DNA of 61,086 nt from Bacteroidales bacterium (GTDB lineage: Bacteria; Bacteroidota; Bacteroidia; Bacteroidales; UBA7960), in contig PWJZ01000012.1 of NCBI GenBank assembly GCA_003559855.1, positions 1 through 61,086 on the forward strand. Direction: 5' to 3'. The translations under genes were made by a program, and so were the position numbers. The notes below the pieces were generated by a model, which searched no databases, had not been told where the DNA came from, and saw nothing but the letters and a program-made list of their open reading frames with translations. This document shows, piece after piece, positions 12,784 through 59,335 of the stretch (within the stretch, counting starts at the first letter, position 1; each line of letters begins with the position of its first letter).

Positions 12784-13202
12784 TTTTCCTGTATAAATAT
12801 ATTCATCTCACATTCCAGAAGCGTAATTCCCGAGCTTTCGACTTTCCCCCTGATAATGTGAGCATTCATTATCCTGCTTATGGTTTCTGTTTCTGTATCA
12901 AGTATATTGCCGGGTTTTGGCAATTTGTAGGTTTTTAAATTTTTAACCGAACCTATAAATCCGGTATTTACCGGTTTGTTATTTGACGCTGATTCGTACC
13001 CCGAGCCGGCGGCGGCTGTTTGTGCAATGTTCTCTATCAATCCGCTTTCCTGTAAACAGCCGTTTTTGATCATTGGATTCTCACACGGAATCTTATACCT
13101 GGATTTAACCTTACCTTTATTAACAGCTATTAAATTGTCAATCATTACAAAAGGTGGCCGCTGGGGAAGATATTCCGTTATATTTTCCTTTGATACAAGC
13201 AT
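12780..13202 (-). CDS. ApeP-like 3-hydroxyacyl-ACP dehydratase (hotdog fold)
   Basis: The protein (140 residues) begins with ITEYLPQRPPFVMIDNL, the signature of the hotdog dehydratase family that includes ApeP of aryl-polyene clusters. The central helix GLIENIAQTAAA holds the conserved Glu57. The catalytic His of canonical FabZ/FabA, in the GHFPG loop, is missing: the loop here reads NPMIKNGCLQES. In the E. coli aryl-polyene system the ApeP protein is known to act as a heterocomplex with ApeI. No ApeI-like partner occurs in this window, so activity on its own is uncertain. It lies 8 nt downstream of the methyltransferase gene and overlaps flavodoxin. Confidence 0.78.
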   Translation of the reverse strand: MLVSKENITEYLPQRPPFVMIDNLIAVNKGKVKSRYKIPCENPMIKNGCLQESGLIENIAQTAAAGSGYESASNNKPVNTGFIGSVKNLKTYKLPKPGNILDTETETISRIMNAHIIRGKVESSGITLLECEMNIFIQEK

Positions 13203-13210
13203 TCTTAATA

Positions 13211-14281
13211 TTATTTTTTCGGCTTACATACAAACAGGGTATGGCTTATACCGATATTGTCAATTATTTTATCAACATACATTTCTGCTTTATCAACAAG
13301 TTTTATCATATTTTCGGAGTGGTACATCTGGCTGCATCCATTTGCCATACATACAAAATATAAAGATGTTGCATGCAGGCTGTATATTGCAGCGGTGTGC
13401 TCCTGTTTATCCCAGTAGGTTTCGAGTATATAAAGCAGCCCGTTATCGTTGAGCGCCTTACGCCCGCGCGTCAATAAATGTAATATGTCTTTCGGTGAAA
13501 AACAGTCAAGGAATTGACTCATCCAAACAGCATCATATCCGTAAGGAAAAGGTTTTGATGAGTCCAGAAGATTTGCAGGGCGACTTTCAATACGCGATTC
13601 ATATCCATGTTGCCTGATGTTTTCCTCAGCTTTTTTCAACTGGCCGGGAAGATCCAAAATAGTAACACGTACGTTAATATCATAATTACAGCAGTTAACT
13701 GCAAATTTGCCGGTATTGCCCCCTACATCGAGTATATTTGCAGGATTTTGCCCGAATACCACCGGTAAAACTTCGGGAAAAGCTATATCAGAATAATAGT
13801 GATCAAACTTAAACCAACTTTGTTGAACATTTTCCGGCAATTCGCTGAGGGCTTCATAAATAGTTTTCCATTGGCCGAAAATTTTCAATCCTTCGGGTTT
13901 TTCATTTATTATTGATTTTTCAAGCTCAAAAAATCCAAGATAGTTTACGTCATGCGTGAAATCCATATTAACCCTGGTAAGCTCATCTTTCAACAAGAAC
14001 CAGCCTGTTTTGGTAAGATAAAACCTGTCATTTTTCACATAAACTATTTCAAGGCTAATACCTGCTTCCAACAACACTTTAGTGCCATGAACGGGTAAAC
14101 TGCAATATTTTGCGGTTTCTTCAATGGTCATTCCCTTTTCTCTGTTAATTTCCAGTGCATTCAAAATGCCCAGGTTTCGCATAGCCCTGGCTGCCTGAAA
14201 CATAATAGGGGCAAAGGCTATCTTTTGAGCATCAGACCTGGCTTGTTGTGCGCTTTTATTATCGGATCCGTAATCGTTCAT
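13211..14281 (-). CDS. SAM-dependent O-methyltransferase with N-terminal dimerisation domain
   Basis: The 356-residue enzyme has the two-domain build of plant/streptomycete small-molecule methyltransferases. A winged-helix-like N-terminal part (residues about 20-110, with GMTIEETAKYCSLPVHGTKV) precedes a Rossmann domain with motif I NILDVGGNTGKFAVN and a later GYDAVWMSQFLDCF. Substrates of this family are usually phenols, so methylation of the hydroxycinnamoyl head group made from tyrosine is a reasonable inference; methylation on carbon cannot be excluded. It sits between acyltransferase (138 bp upstream) and dehydratase (8 bp downstream). Confidence 0.82.
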   Translation of the reverse strand: MNDYGSDNKSAQQARSDAQKIAFAPIMFQAARAMRNLGILNALEINREKGMTIEETAKYCSLPVHGTKVLLEAGISLEIVYVKNDRFYLTKTGWFLLKDELTRVNMDFTHDVNYLGFFELEKSIINEKPEGLKIFGQWKTIYEALSELPENVQQSWFKFDHYYSDIAFPEVLPVVFGQNPANILDVGGNTGKFAVNCCNYDINVRVTILDLPGQLKKAEENIRQHGYESRIESRPANLLDSSKPFPYGYDAVWMSQFLDCFSPKDILHLLTRGRKALNDNGLLYILETYWDKQEHTAAIYSLHATSLYFVCMANGCSQMYHSENMIKLVDKAEMYVDKIIDNIGISHTLFVCKPKK

Positions 14282-56221: not shown

Positions 56222-57046
56222 TTAGATTATTATTTGGTATATGTTCAATCCACGGTTATATATTTGCATGCCGGAGATGTTTTCAACAGGTACAGGCTCA
56301 TGATTACCTGTCAGCAGAAAACCATCCGGCTGAATACTCAATGTAATCAGGTTGAATACCTCAATTGCTCTTTCTTTGGCAAAATACATGCCGACAAGAT
56401 TTTTGCAAAATACAAGGTCAAATTGCCCTTCAGGAATTTTATTACGTATATCCTGATGAAGAAAGGTGACTGTATTTTTGATGTTGTCATGCAGACAATA
56501 CTCTCCATTTATTTTCTTAAACGAACTTTGTAGCCATTTTGCCGGAACTTCCTTTACATTACCTGCCGGATAACAAGCTTCGGCTGCACGCTGCAAAAGA
56601 TGTGTGTTGGCATCTGTAGCTATCAGTTGAAAGTTCAATGACGGGAATGAATGTTTTAGTTTTTGATGGTATAAAATTGCCAGGCTGTAGGGTTCTTCTC
56701 CGGAAGCGCATCCTGCCGACCAGCAGCGCAGCGGGCGATTTTCATCAATGGCTTTGGCAGCAAGTTCCGGTAGCAGCTTCTCACTCAACATTTCCCACGA
56801 CTTGTAATCCCTGAAAAAGCGGGATATACTGATGTGCATCATTCCATCCAGTATTTTCCACTCATCGGGATTCTTCGAGAAGTATTCCTTGTAGCAGCTG
56901 AAACTGCCTAACCGCAATGATGCTATTCGGGCATTTATTCGTTTGCAGACCTGGCGTTTTACCTTGCGATAGCCCTCCCAGCGAAGTCCAAGCTGAGGCA
57001 AAGCCCATTTGAGGAATTCGGTGCAGAGTATTTCTTTGTTCTTCAT
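56222..57046 (-). CDS. CheR-like protein methyltransferase
   Basis: The 274-residue protein has the CheR-type pattern: an N-terminal helical domain, HISISRFFRDYKSWEML, motif I CWSAGCASGEEPYSLAIL, and FDLVFCKNLVGMYFAKERAI. CheR proteins methylate glutamates of chemoreceptors with SAM. No chemoreceptor, CheA or CheB gene is in the window, so it may serve another signalling protein. It is 22 bp downstream of the fabI remnant on the same strand. Confidence 0.85.
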   Translation of the reverse strand: MKNKEILCTEFLKWALPQLGLRWEGYRKVKRQVCKRINARIASLRLGSFSCYKEYFSKNPDEWKILDGMMHISISRFFRDYKSWEMLSEKLLPELAAKAIDENRPLRCWSAGCASGEEPYSLAILYHQKLKHSFPSLNFQLIATDANTHLLQRAAEACYPAGNVKEVPAKWLQSSFKKINGEYCLHDNIKNTVTFLHQDIRNKIPEGQFDLVFCKNLVGMYFAKERAIEVFNLITLSIQPDGFLLTGNHEPVPVENISGMQIYNRGLNIYQIII

Positions 57047-57068: not shown

Positions 57069-57503
57069 TTAGATATCCTGAAAATCATCAGACTCCAGGC
57101 TTTTATTATACTGCATCATAGCCTGCAAGCTCATACCCATACTTGAAAAGCCACCATCATGATAAAGGTTTTGCATGGTAACTTTTTTGGTAAAATCAGA
57201 AAACATAACCACACAATATTCCGCACAATCATCGGCATCGGCATTTCCCAGTGGCGACATCCGCTCTGAAAAATCAATCAAACCATCAACACCCTTTACG
57301 CCGCTACCGGCGGTTGTATATGTGGGAGATTGACTGATAGTGTTATCCGACAAATCGCCCATACGGCATGCTACCGGGGTGTTGCTAAGTGTAAATATTG
57401 CTCCTTCACGATGTACTGCCTCTGCAACTTTCCATGCAATGGATTTATCGTTAAGGGCACCGAAAATAATACTACGCTTGCCTTTTAAAAGATTATATGT
57501 CAT
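57069..57503 (-). pseudogene. Internally deleted enoyl-ACP reductase (fabI remnant)
   Basis: Residues 1-52 (MTYNLLKGKRSIIFGALNDK, then IAWKVAEAVHREGA, NTPVACRMG) match the N-terminus of Bacteroidota FabI. From residue 54 on, NTISQSPTYTTAGSGVKG and CAEYCVVMFSDFTKKVTMQN match its C-terminal third. The middle of about 130 residues, including the catalytic Tyr and Lys, is missing in frame, so only 144 of about 280 residues remain. The junction is at about 57340-57360. It cannot be an active enoyl reductase. A good -7 element upstream suggests it may still be transcribed. A functional fabI must be elsewhere, since the enzyme is normally essential. Confidence 0.82.
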
Positions 57504-57529: not shown

Positions 57530-57537
57530 CAAAGTTA
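57530..57537 (-). promoter_or_regulatory. -7 element of the fabI remnant
   Basis: TAACTTTG on the minus strand, 27 nt before the ATG, is a good TAnnTTTG match and probably the original fabI promoter. The upstream TTG is only about 10 nt away. Confidence 0.45.
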
Positions 57538-57556
57538 GCAAAAAATTCAATAAGTT

Positions 57557-58612
57557 TTAGAGATCAGATATGCCTTTTCCAATCCGCGCTATACCCTCTT
57601 CAATTTCATTTTCATTGTTTTTTGCAATTGAAATTCTTATCTGGTTGTTTGATTTGGGGTTAAAATATAATGAATTGCCATTACTCACCATTACACCATA
57701 TTTAAGAAAGTGATCCTCTAAGTTTATCTCATTATTTGTTTTAATGTTTAACCAGATAAGAAATCCTCCTAACGGATCAACCCATGAAGCTTTGTCATTT
57801 GGAATATGTTTTTTAAGTGAAGTAAGCGCTGTTTTCATCCTTTTACGAAAGACCCGCATCAGTTTTCGAATGTGCAATTCATAACTTCCGGAATTACAGT
57901 AATGGAACAAAATAGCTTGACTTAAAGAGTTAGACGATAAGTCCAACACTGTTTTCAGAGATGTGAGCCGGGCAATACATTCTTTGTGAGCTATTATCCA
58001 GCCGGTACGTAATCCCGGCGACATCACTTTTGAGAAAGAACTTAAGTAAATAACAATACCTTTTGAGTCCATACTTTTTATCGGCAAATGCGCTTTGCCA
58101 AAATACTTCATCTCCTCTTCAAAGCTGTCTTCAACAATTATGGTGCTATTTTGCTCACAAAGTTGCAATAGTTTTTCACGCTTTGCCTGGCTCATAGTTA
58201 TACCTGTTGGGTTGTGAAAGGTGGGCATGGTGTATATCATGCTTATTCTTTGTTTTTTCATGATTTTTTCAAGAAACCCCACGTCCATTCCATCGTCACT
58301 AAACGGGACCTCTATAACCTTAATATCTAAAAACTTTATCAGGGGAATCAGCATTGAATAGGTTGGTGATTCAACAGCAACAACATCTTTTTTGTTAACA
58401 AATTCCTGAAATATAAGCTGTAGTGAGTTTTGTGAACCGTTAGTAATGAGAATATTTTCGTCAGCTGCACTAATACTATGAAGCTGCATGTGATTTAAAA
58501 CCGCATTGCGAAGAGGTTTATAGCCGCGTGGATCACTATAGCCGAATATGTTTGAATTTTGATCGCTAATGGCTGCCCGATAGCAGGAATTTATTGTTTT
58601 AAGGTCAATCAA
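57557..58612 (-). CDS. PLP-dependent aminotransferase, 5'-truncated MocR/PdxR-type
   Basis: The 351 residues form a fold type I aminotransferase: GYSDPRGYKPLRNAVLNHMQ, TNGSQNSLQLIFQEFV, PTFHNPTGITMSQ, and the PLP lysine K195 in SSFSKVMSPGLRTGW. This arrangement is that of the C-terminal domain of MocR/GntR-type regulators. Reading upstream of the TTG start, the frame continues with FDFKRLEPDHR, which also fits the family, until a stop at 58661-58663. There the neighbouring plus-strand methyltransferase begins, so the N-terminal GntR DNA-binding domain is missing. It may be a remnant, or a stand-alone aminotransferase. It has no ATG start. Confidence 0.72.
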   Translation of the reverse strand: MIDLKTINSCYRAAISDQNSNIFGYSDPRGYKPLRNAVLNHMQLHSISAADENILITNGSQNSLQLIFQEFVNKKDVVAVESPTYSMLIPLIKFLDIKVIEVPFSDDGMDVGFLEKIMKKQRISMIYTMPTFHNPTGITMSQAKREKLLQLCEQNSTIIVEDSFEEEMKYFGKAHLPIKSMDSKGIVIYLSSFSKVMSPGLRTGWIIAHKECIARLTSLKTVLDLSSNSLSQAILFHYCNSGSYELHIRKLMRVFRKRMKTALTSLKKHIPNDKASWVDPLGGFLIWLNIKTNNEINLEDHFLKYGVMVSNGNSLYFNPKSNNQIRISIAKNNENEIEEGIARIGKGISDL

Positions 58613-58666: not shown

Positions 58667-59335
58667 ATGGAGTTTTACGGAACTTATTATTTGGCTTTTC
58701 GTGACCTGCCAGACTTGTTTTCAAAGTATGCAGAAGGCGGAAAGGCCATAGATTTTGGTTGTGGTGCCGGACGTTCAACACGTTTTTTAAAATCTTTGGG
58801 TTTCAAAACTCTTGGTGTTGATATTTCTTTAGAGATGATAGACTTGGCTAAAGAGAAAGACCCTGAAGGCAATTATTTAATAATTGAGGATGGTGTGCTA
58901 AATGGCTTGGCAAACAAATCTTTTGATTTGGTTTTTTCGGCTTTTACTTTTGATAATGTTCCTGCTATGGCAAAAAAAATTGGGCTGTTCAGTGAGTTTC
59001 ACAGAGTTCTTAAACCCGGCGGATGTGTTGTTAATCTTGTTTCTTCACCGGAGCTTTATGTAAATGATTGGGTTTCGTTTAAAACTACTTGCTTTCCCGA
59101 AAATATCACTGCAAAAAGTGGCGATATAGTGAGAACGATCATTCTTGATACCGACGATCATCGTCCGGTTGATGATGAACTATGCACTGATGTTGATTAT
59201 AAGGAAATTTATGCAAAAACAGGCTTTGATATACTCGACGTTCATAAACCTTTGGCGCTCCATAGCGAGCCATATCCATGGGTAAACGAGACACGTATCG
59301 CGCCATGGACAATTTATGTTTTGAGATCTGATTAG
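58667..59335 (+). CDS. Class I SAM-dependent methyltransferase
   Basis: The 222-residue protein starts best at ATG 58667 (MEFYGTYYLAFRDLPDLF). Motif I IDFGCGAGRSTRFLKSLG (28-45), the LGVDISLEMIDLA segment and the GLANKSFDLVFSAFTFDN motif define a Methyltransf_11-type enzyme. Substrate unknown. It is divergent from the truncated aminotransferase with only 54 bp between the starts, and looks like an accessory gene inserted at a breakpoint. Confidence 0.85.
   Translation: MEFYGTYYLAFRDLPDLFSKYAEGGKAIDFGCGAGRSTRFLKSLGFKTLGVDISLEMIDLAKEKDPEGNYLIIEDGVLNGLANKSFDLVFSAFTFDNVPAMAKKIGLFSEFHRVLKPGGCVVNLVSSPELYVNDWVSFKTTCFPENITAKSGDIVRTIILDTDDHRPVDDELCTDVDYKEIYAKTGFDILDVHKPLALHSEPYPWVNETRIAPWTIYVLRSD

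Follow-up and report, generated by a model that had tools for sequence, protein, structure and literature searches.

A fabI gene without its catalytic middle in a Bacteroidales assembly that also carries a FabK homologue

In the window, the whole stretch of 61,086 nucleotides analyzed here, the open reading frame at 57503..57069 on the minus strand encoded 144 amino acids corresponding to a FabI of the Bacteroidota type minus its catalytic middle. The reading we prefer, with a probability of about 60%, is a young fabI pseudogene that was formed by a real in-frame deletion of 408 bp and was tolerated most likely thanks to a FabK encoded on contig C83 of the same genome (G000). With the loss of its middle, fabI would no longer encode an enoyl-ACP reductase, and the frame would still be open because little time has passed since the deletion. 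Enoyl-ACP reduction would be carried out by the FMN-type FabK of the Porphyromonas gingivalis class on C83, which most likely would allow the cell to survive.

Results

Structure of the fabI remnant

The remnant (57069..57503, minus strand) was compared with the FabI of G003, a genome of the same genus (280 aa; contig C85:308-1150, locus L041), which served as the reference for the deletion. The alignment showed that residues 1-53 and 190-280 were kept and that residues 54-189, exactly 408 bp or 136 residues, were absent from the window gene. The N-terminal 53 codons (57345..57503, minus strand) agreed with G003 at 50 of 53 residues (94%), and the C-terminal 91 codons (57072..57344, minus strand) at 88 of 91 (97%), the differences in the latter part being 27 synonymous and 3 nonsynonymous. 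The missing 408 bp fell between the two bases of the join at 57344..57345 on the minus strand. An earlier sequence-only reading had described an in-frame internal deletion of fabI with an intact reading frame, in which 52 and 90 residues were kept and about 130 residues were gone together with the active site. The in-frame deletion was confirmed in the assembly and the frame was indeed open over 144 codons, while the residue counts given at that time were essentially right.

The descent of the 144-aa ORF from FabI was borne out by the phylogenetic tree, in which it was the sister of G003 FabI with a support of 100/100. Pfam adh_short_C2 matched the second half of the ORF (E 4.7e-18, profile positions 169-236 of 236), and the search of the window's assembly with G003 FabI recovered the two ends at E-values of 6.0e-54 and 7.1e-27, far beyond chance. 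Most NCBIfam FabI models matched the remnant as two separate stretches far under their cut-offs, and the best model gave 51.6 bits against a curated cut-off of 452. The G003 protein matched 6vlx, a solved example of the Bacteroidota-type FabI (NADH-dependent enoyl-ACP reductase of the SDR superfamily), over residues 1-276 with an E-value of 6e-125. When compared to this enzyme, the remnant consists of residues 1-53 and 190-280 of the 6vlx-matching protein, without the 136 residues that include the centre of the fold. The deleted block also contained Y160 and K167, which have the spacing of the catalytic Tyr-x6-Lys pair of FabI and were unchanged throughout 26 intact FabIs. As both this pair and the fold centre are lost, the predicted 144-aa product cannot be an active FabI.

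Conserved locus and promoter-like box

The remnant has a conserved downstream neighbor, a cheR-type methyltransferase gene (56222..57046, minus strand; Pfam CheR, E 6.1e-42), whose product was 80% identical over 271 residues to that of the copy beside fabI in G003. In G003, the intact fabI was followed by cheR and, farther on, by a DUF5686 gene, both shared with the window. The remnant is thus orthologous to the intact G003 fabI, as the conserved cheR ties the two loci together.

The promoter-like box reported earlier was also present. The sequence TAACTTTG at 57530-57537 (minus strand) lies 34 nt upstream of the start codon and agrees with TAnnTTTG, the -7 consensus of Bacteroidota, and the intact fabI of G003 had the counterpart TAATTTTG at -35, nearly the same distance. 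Such a box would be weak evidence of transcription, since a -7-type motif alone is frequent in AT-rich DNA.

The window additionally encoded, at 57557-58612 on the minus strand, a PdxR/MocR-type protein having the aminotransferase domain without the N-terminal DNA-binding part (profile positions 109-447 of 448). This gene adjoins a divergent methyltransferase gene near 58667, and is possibly a second truncation next to fabI. The DNA similarity between the window and G003 stopped at 57554, between the fabI remnant and the PdxR/MocR-type gene.

Distribution of fabI among relatives

The deletion was found only in the window's genome among the four genomes of the genus. G003 had the intact FabI, and FabI was not found in G001 and G002, where the best E-values with the full-length G003 FabI were 0.0026 and 0.087 (genomes 93% and 89% complete); none of the three other members of the genus thus shared the deletion. 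In a search of 59 genomes with the 144-aa query, 47 genomes including the window's own gave a match at E-values up to 1e-5, and the window gene was the only one-piece end-to-end match. The other 46 had open frames no shorter than 280 aa, with the exception of G033, in which a match of 35 residues was cut off by the end of a contig of 3,791 bases. We also judged the best row per genome in a sample of the order, comprising 158 genomes with completeness of at least 90% drawn evenly from a larger group. Matches at an E-value of 1e-12 were obtained in 118 of them (own included), and in each of the remaining 117 the best row lay in an open frame of 272-373 aa. A deletion common to relatives was rejected, with the gene intact in G003 and the gutted form in none of the 46 and 117 other matching genomes.

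Genomes of the order often lack this FabI type, as 40 of the 158 genomes gave no match at 1e-12. Three genomes of the same order with 98-99% completeness (G035, G037, and G052) gave no match to FabI, FabK, or FabV at E-values up to 1e-5, 1e-20, and 1e-10, respectively, where the FabI query was the 144-aa remnant, which a divergent FabI could escape.

A FabK homologue on contig C83

A FabK homologue was identified in the window's genome at C83:12820-13758 (12820-13728 in the genome search with the FabK model), scoring 344.6-344.9 bits with the FabK profile. The proteins matching the FabK model in G001-G003 scored 96-147 bits only, and the best of each was 36-39% identical to the C83 homologue. 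Its best match among solved structures was 4iql with 381 bits (56% identity over 304 residues), followed by the next at 273 bits. Further solved matches were enoyl-ACP reductase rows at 249-273 bits, 3bo9 (putative nitroalkan dioxygenase) at 271 bits, and, at 185 bits, the best nitronate monooxygenase, demonstrating that the closest solved relative is a FabK and not a nitronate monooxygenase. The structure 4iql is the FabK of P. gingivalis according to an excerpt of PMC9260719. This enzyme (enoyl-ACP reductase II) fell into the same tree group as the C83 homologue with a support of 94/96. Unlike the P. gingivalis enzyme, the C83 homologue is encoded in a beta-oxidation cluster and scored below the NCBI FabK cut-off (344.9 bits vs 453.1 bits for NCBIfam TIGR03151), and its activity is putative. 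The TIGR03151 cut-off was reached by none of the 59 relatives, including G042, whose FabK is encoded beside fabF- and fabH-like genes (identified from translations).

The neighbors on C83 encoded thiolases, 3-hydroxyacyl-CoA and acyl-CoA dehydrogenases, enoyl-CoA hydratase, and ETF, and no fatty-acid synthesis genes were seen among them. As the score lies under the cut-off and the gene resides in a beta-oxidation cluster away from fab genes, the C83 protein may act on enoyl-CoA. Within this cluster (L066:4964-17864), the FabK gene was located between a thiolase gene and an alpha/beta-hydrolase-like gene. The close form of FabK was present in three of the 32 family genomes, namely G000, G015 (79%), and G010 (77%), and the rest were at most 41% identical among the matches listed. 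The visible gene order around FabK in G010 and G015 looked like that on C83 when judged by eye.

The contig C83 appears to belong to the window's genome. Among the 47 family genomes searched, the MltG encoded on C83 gave its top scores with G003 (74%) and G002 (66%), and the last gene of the contig matched G002 and G003 with DNA identities of 72% and 69%, respectively. The counter-signals were the genus mate G001, whose MltG at 61% was no closer than that of several other genera, and a G069 fragment of 135 residues with 75%. Apart from these two values, misbinning of the FabK contig found no support.

Co-occurrence of enoyl-ACP reductases

No second FabI was found in the window's assembly with the G003 query at E-values up to 10, which detected only the two ends of the remnant followed by a weak match on contig C99 (E 0.005, 24% identity). 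The C99 protein was the only one of the 10 other adh_short_C2 matches in G000 that surfaced with this query. As the assembly consists of 131 contigs with a completeness of 96.33%, a further fabI could be missing from it. FabV was absent from all four genomes of the genus and was rejected as the replacement there; one of the 59 relatives had FabV.

Mutual exclusion of FabK and FabI was not borne out, as G010 had the close FabK and an intact FabI together. Five genomes of the order (L060-L064) with FabK homologues of the C83 clade also matched FabI, and G015 had the close FabK without a FabI match. In G001 and G002, neither FabI, the close FabK, nor FabV was found, and these genomes would have a reductase of another kind or one missing from their assemblies.

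The sequence-only reading had regarded the gene as a possible relic of gene replacement and had named FabK, FabV, and a second FabI as potential successors. The search for another enoyl reductase left FabK alone among these, in the form of a homologue that shares 56% identity with the P. gingivalis FabK and is lacking in the three genus mates, which gave the replacement circumstantial support. Since this FabK is encoded in a beta-oxidation cluster, its activity is putative, and G010 has both enzymes, the replacement is something that we infer. The C83 FabK would thereby serve fatty-acid synthesis and would presumably have been there before fabI was lost.

Age, constraint, and structure model of the remnant

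The remnant differed from the G003 gene by 35 synonymous and 7 nonsynonymous differences (dN/dS 0.038), and the neighbors gave dN/dS values of 0.148 (cheR) and 0.057 (DUF5686). The low ratio resembles that of a working gene with decay hardly visible, which fits either a recent deletion or a product under constraint. Synonymous changes were fewer in the N-terminal part (8 of 35.5 sites) than in the C-terminal part (27 of 55), numbers that are small. Wholly neutral evolution of the window branch would predict about 66 nonsynonymous changes, and at most five residues can have changed on this branch. Unless the remnant was constrained, the deletion would thus fall within about the final tenth of the period that followed the split of the window and G003 lineages.

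Two substitutions, G11S and A30V, were exclusive to the window gene in an alignment of 27 sequences, the other 26 rows being invariant at both sites; G003 had no such change. Among these 26 rows, seven had one to four changes at otherwise invariant sites, and three of the seven had two to four. AlphaFold2 modeled the remnant with a mean pLDDT of 45.4 and a pTM of 0.39, compared with 67.2 and 0.72 for the intact G003 control built from an alignment of the same relatives. For residues 1-50 in blocks of ten, pLDDT was 29-61 in the remnant and 80-96 in the control. The control informs mainly on the N-terminal half, as the C-terminal part was poorly modeled in both. The deleted block comprised several of the strands and helices seen in the control model. 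We lean toward loss of function, to which the two substitutions and the collapsed N-terminal model point.

Discussion

The explanations weighed here overlap, and the confidence given to them is not meant to sum to one. The deletion may lie outside the main population, as an assembly error or a minor-strain variant in the consensus of a metagenome, in which case the organism would have a normal fabI. The fragmentation of the source assembly into 131 contigs, the occurrence of the deletion in no other genome searched, and the kept sequence being as conserved as a working gene are in line with this explanation. So is the case of Escherichia coli, where FabI is the only such reductase and is essential in the account excerpted from PMC5126088. 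Against it, the breakpoints shared no base when G003 was taken as a proxy for the ancestor, which rules against a repeat-driven deletion and leaves a repeat collapse without substrate. The missing middle of fabI was also on no other contig of the bin in the search with G003 FabI, two otherwise invariant residues were altered, and the length was a multiple of three, although chance gives this once in three. As the breakpoints have no common bases and the middle is absent from the other contigs, the presence of the deletion in at least some cells is favored. The deletion is probably real, and we expect it in the living population; a false or minor deletion seems unlikely, albeit with enough in its favor to be taken seriously.

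A second explanation accepts the deletion and regards fabI as a horizontally gained copy beside cheR that was dispensable in the genus regardless, so that its decay would have no relation to FabK. In the FabI tree of 112 sequences (L155, the second locus of the G006 gene, was left out), the remnant and G003 FabI grouped with Marinilabiliaceae FabI (99/83), while the FabIs of 12 genomes from other genera of the same family formed a separate clade (100/100). A cheR homologue was not detected in the vicinity of fabI in G177 or in any of the 25 named loci examined, within reach of those loci, and cheR of G002 adjoins a peptidase-like gene (identified from its translation) in place of fabI. G001 and G002 moreover showed neither FabI nor a FabK of the C83 type. 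Horizontal gain may apply to this fabI or to the other type of the family; the direction of transfer is unsure, as the long stem (0.91) of the family clade may distort its placement. That stem, together with the lack of another FabI in G000 and G003, by which the G003 copy appears to be its only one, makes a dispensable copy rather doubtful. Still less credible is that the 144-aa product was retained as a short protein with a new role, as had also been suggested from the sequence, for example a non-catalytic one in the binding of FabI partners or acyl-ACP. The open frame, the kept promoter-like box, and a dN/dS below those of both neighbors agree with retention. A deletion late on the branch gives the same ratio, however, and the N-terminal collapse relative to the control, the strands and helices lost with the deleted block, the two changed invariant sites, and the absence of this form from every other matching genome left the suggestion without support.

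The young pseudogene, whose loss would be tolerated most likely because the C83 FabK can serve in its place, resembles the known redundancy and exchange among the enoyl-ACP reductase types FabI, FabK, FabV, and FabL, in which one type can be dispensable beside another. In the excerpt of PMC5126088, neither fabI nor fabV is essential in Pseudomonas aeruginosa, which has both, and FabI of Enterococcus faecalis is essential although FabK is present. The present case differs from the known exchanges in that an in-frame remnant of the lost gene can still be recognized and a sister genome carries the gene intact. Among the matches listed in the open-licence literature, we found no published report of such a gutted fabI remnant, and no work in that literature on FabI together with FabK in Bacteroidales or on an internal fabI deletion was found. 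Taken alone, a gene with a recent deletion in a draft metagenome assembly is unremarkable. The event is of an ordinary kind, and its attractive feature is the intact sister copy.

A more speculative view is that the genus is in the middle of a change of enoyl-ACP reductase, with one of four genomes keeping fabI, one having the gutted fabI and the FabK in a beta-oxidation cluster, and two without FabI, this FabK, and FabV that may use an unrecognized reductase. If the preferred reading of a young pseudogene is true, the gutted copy, the intact sister copy, and the candidate replacement gene would together capture an essential step in its transfer from one enzyme to another, and FabK homologues of the P. 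gingivalis class in beta-oxidation clusters would become testable for a role in fatty-acid synthesis.
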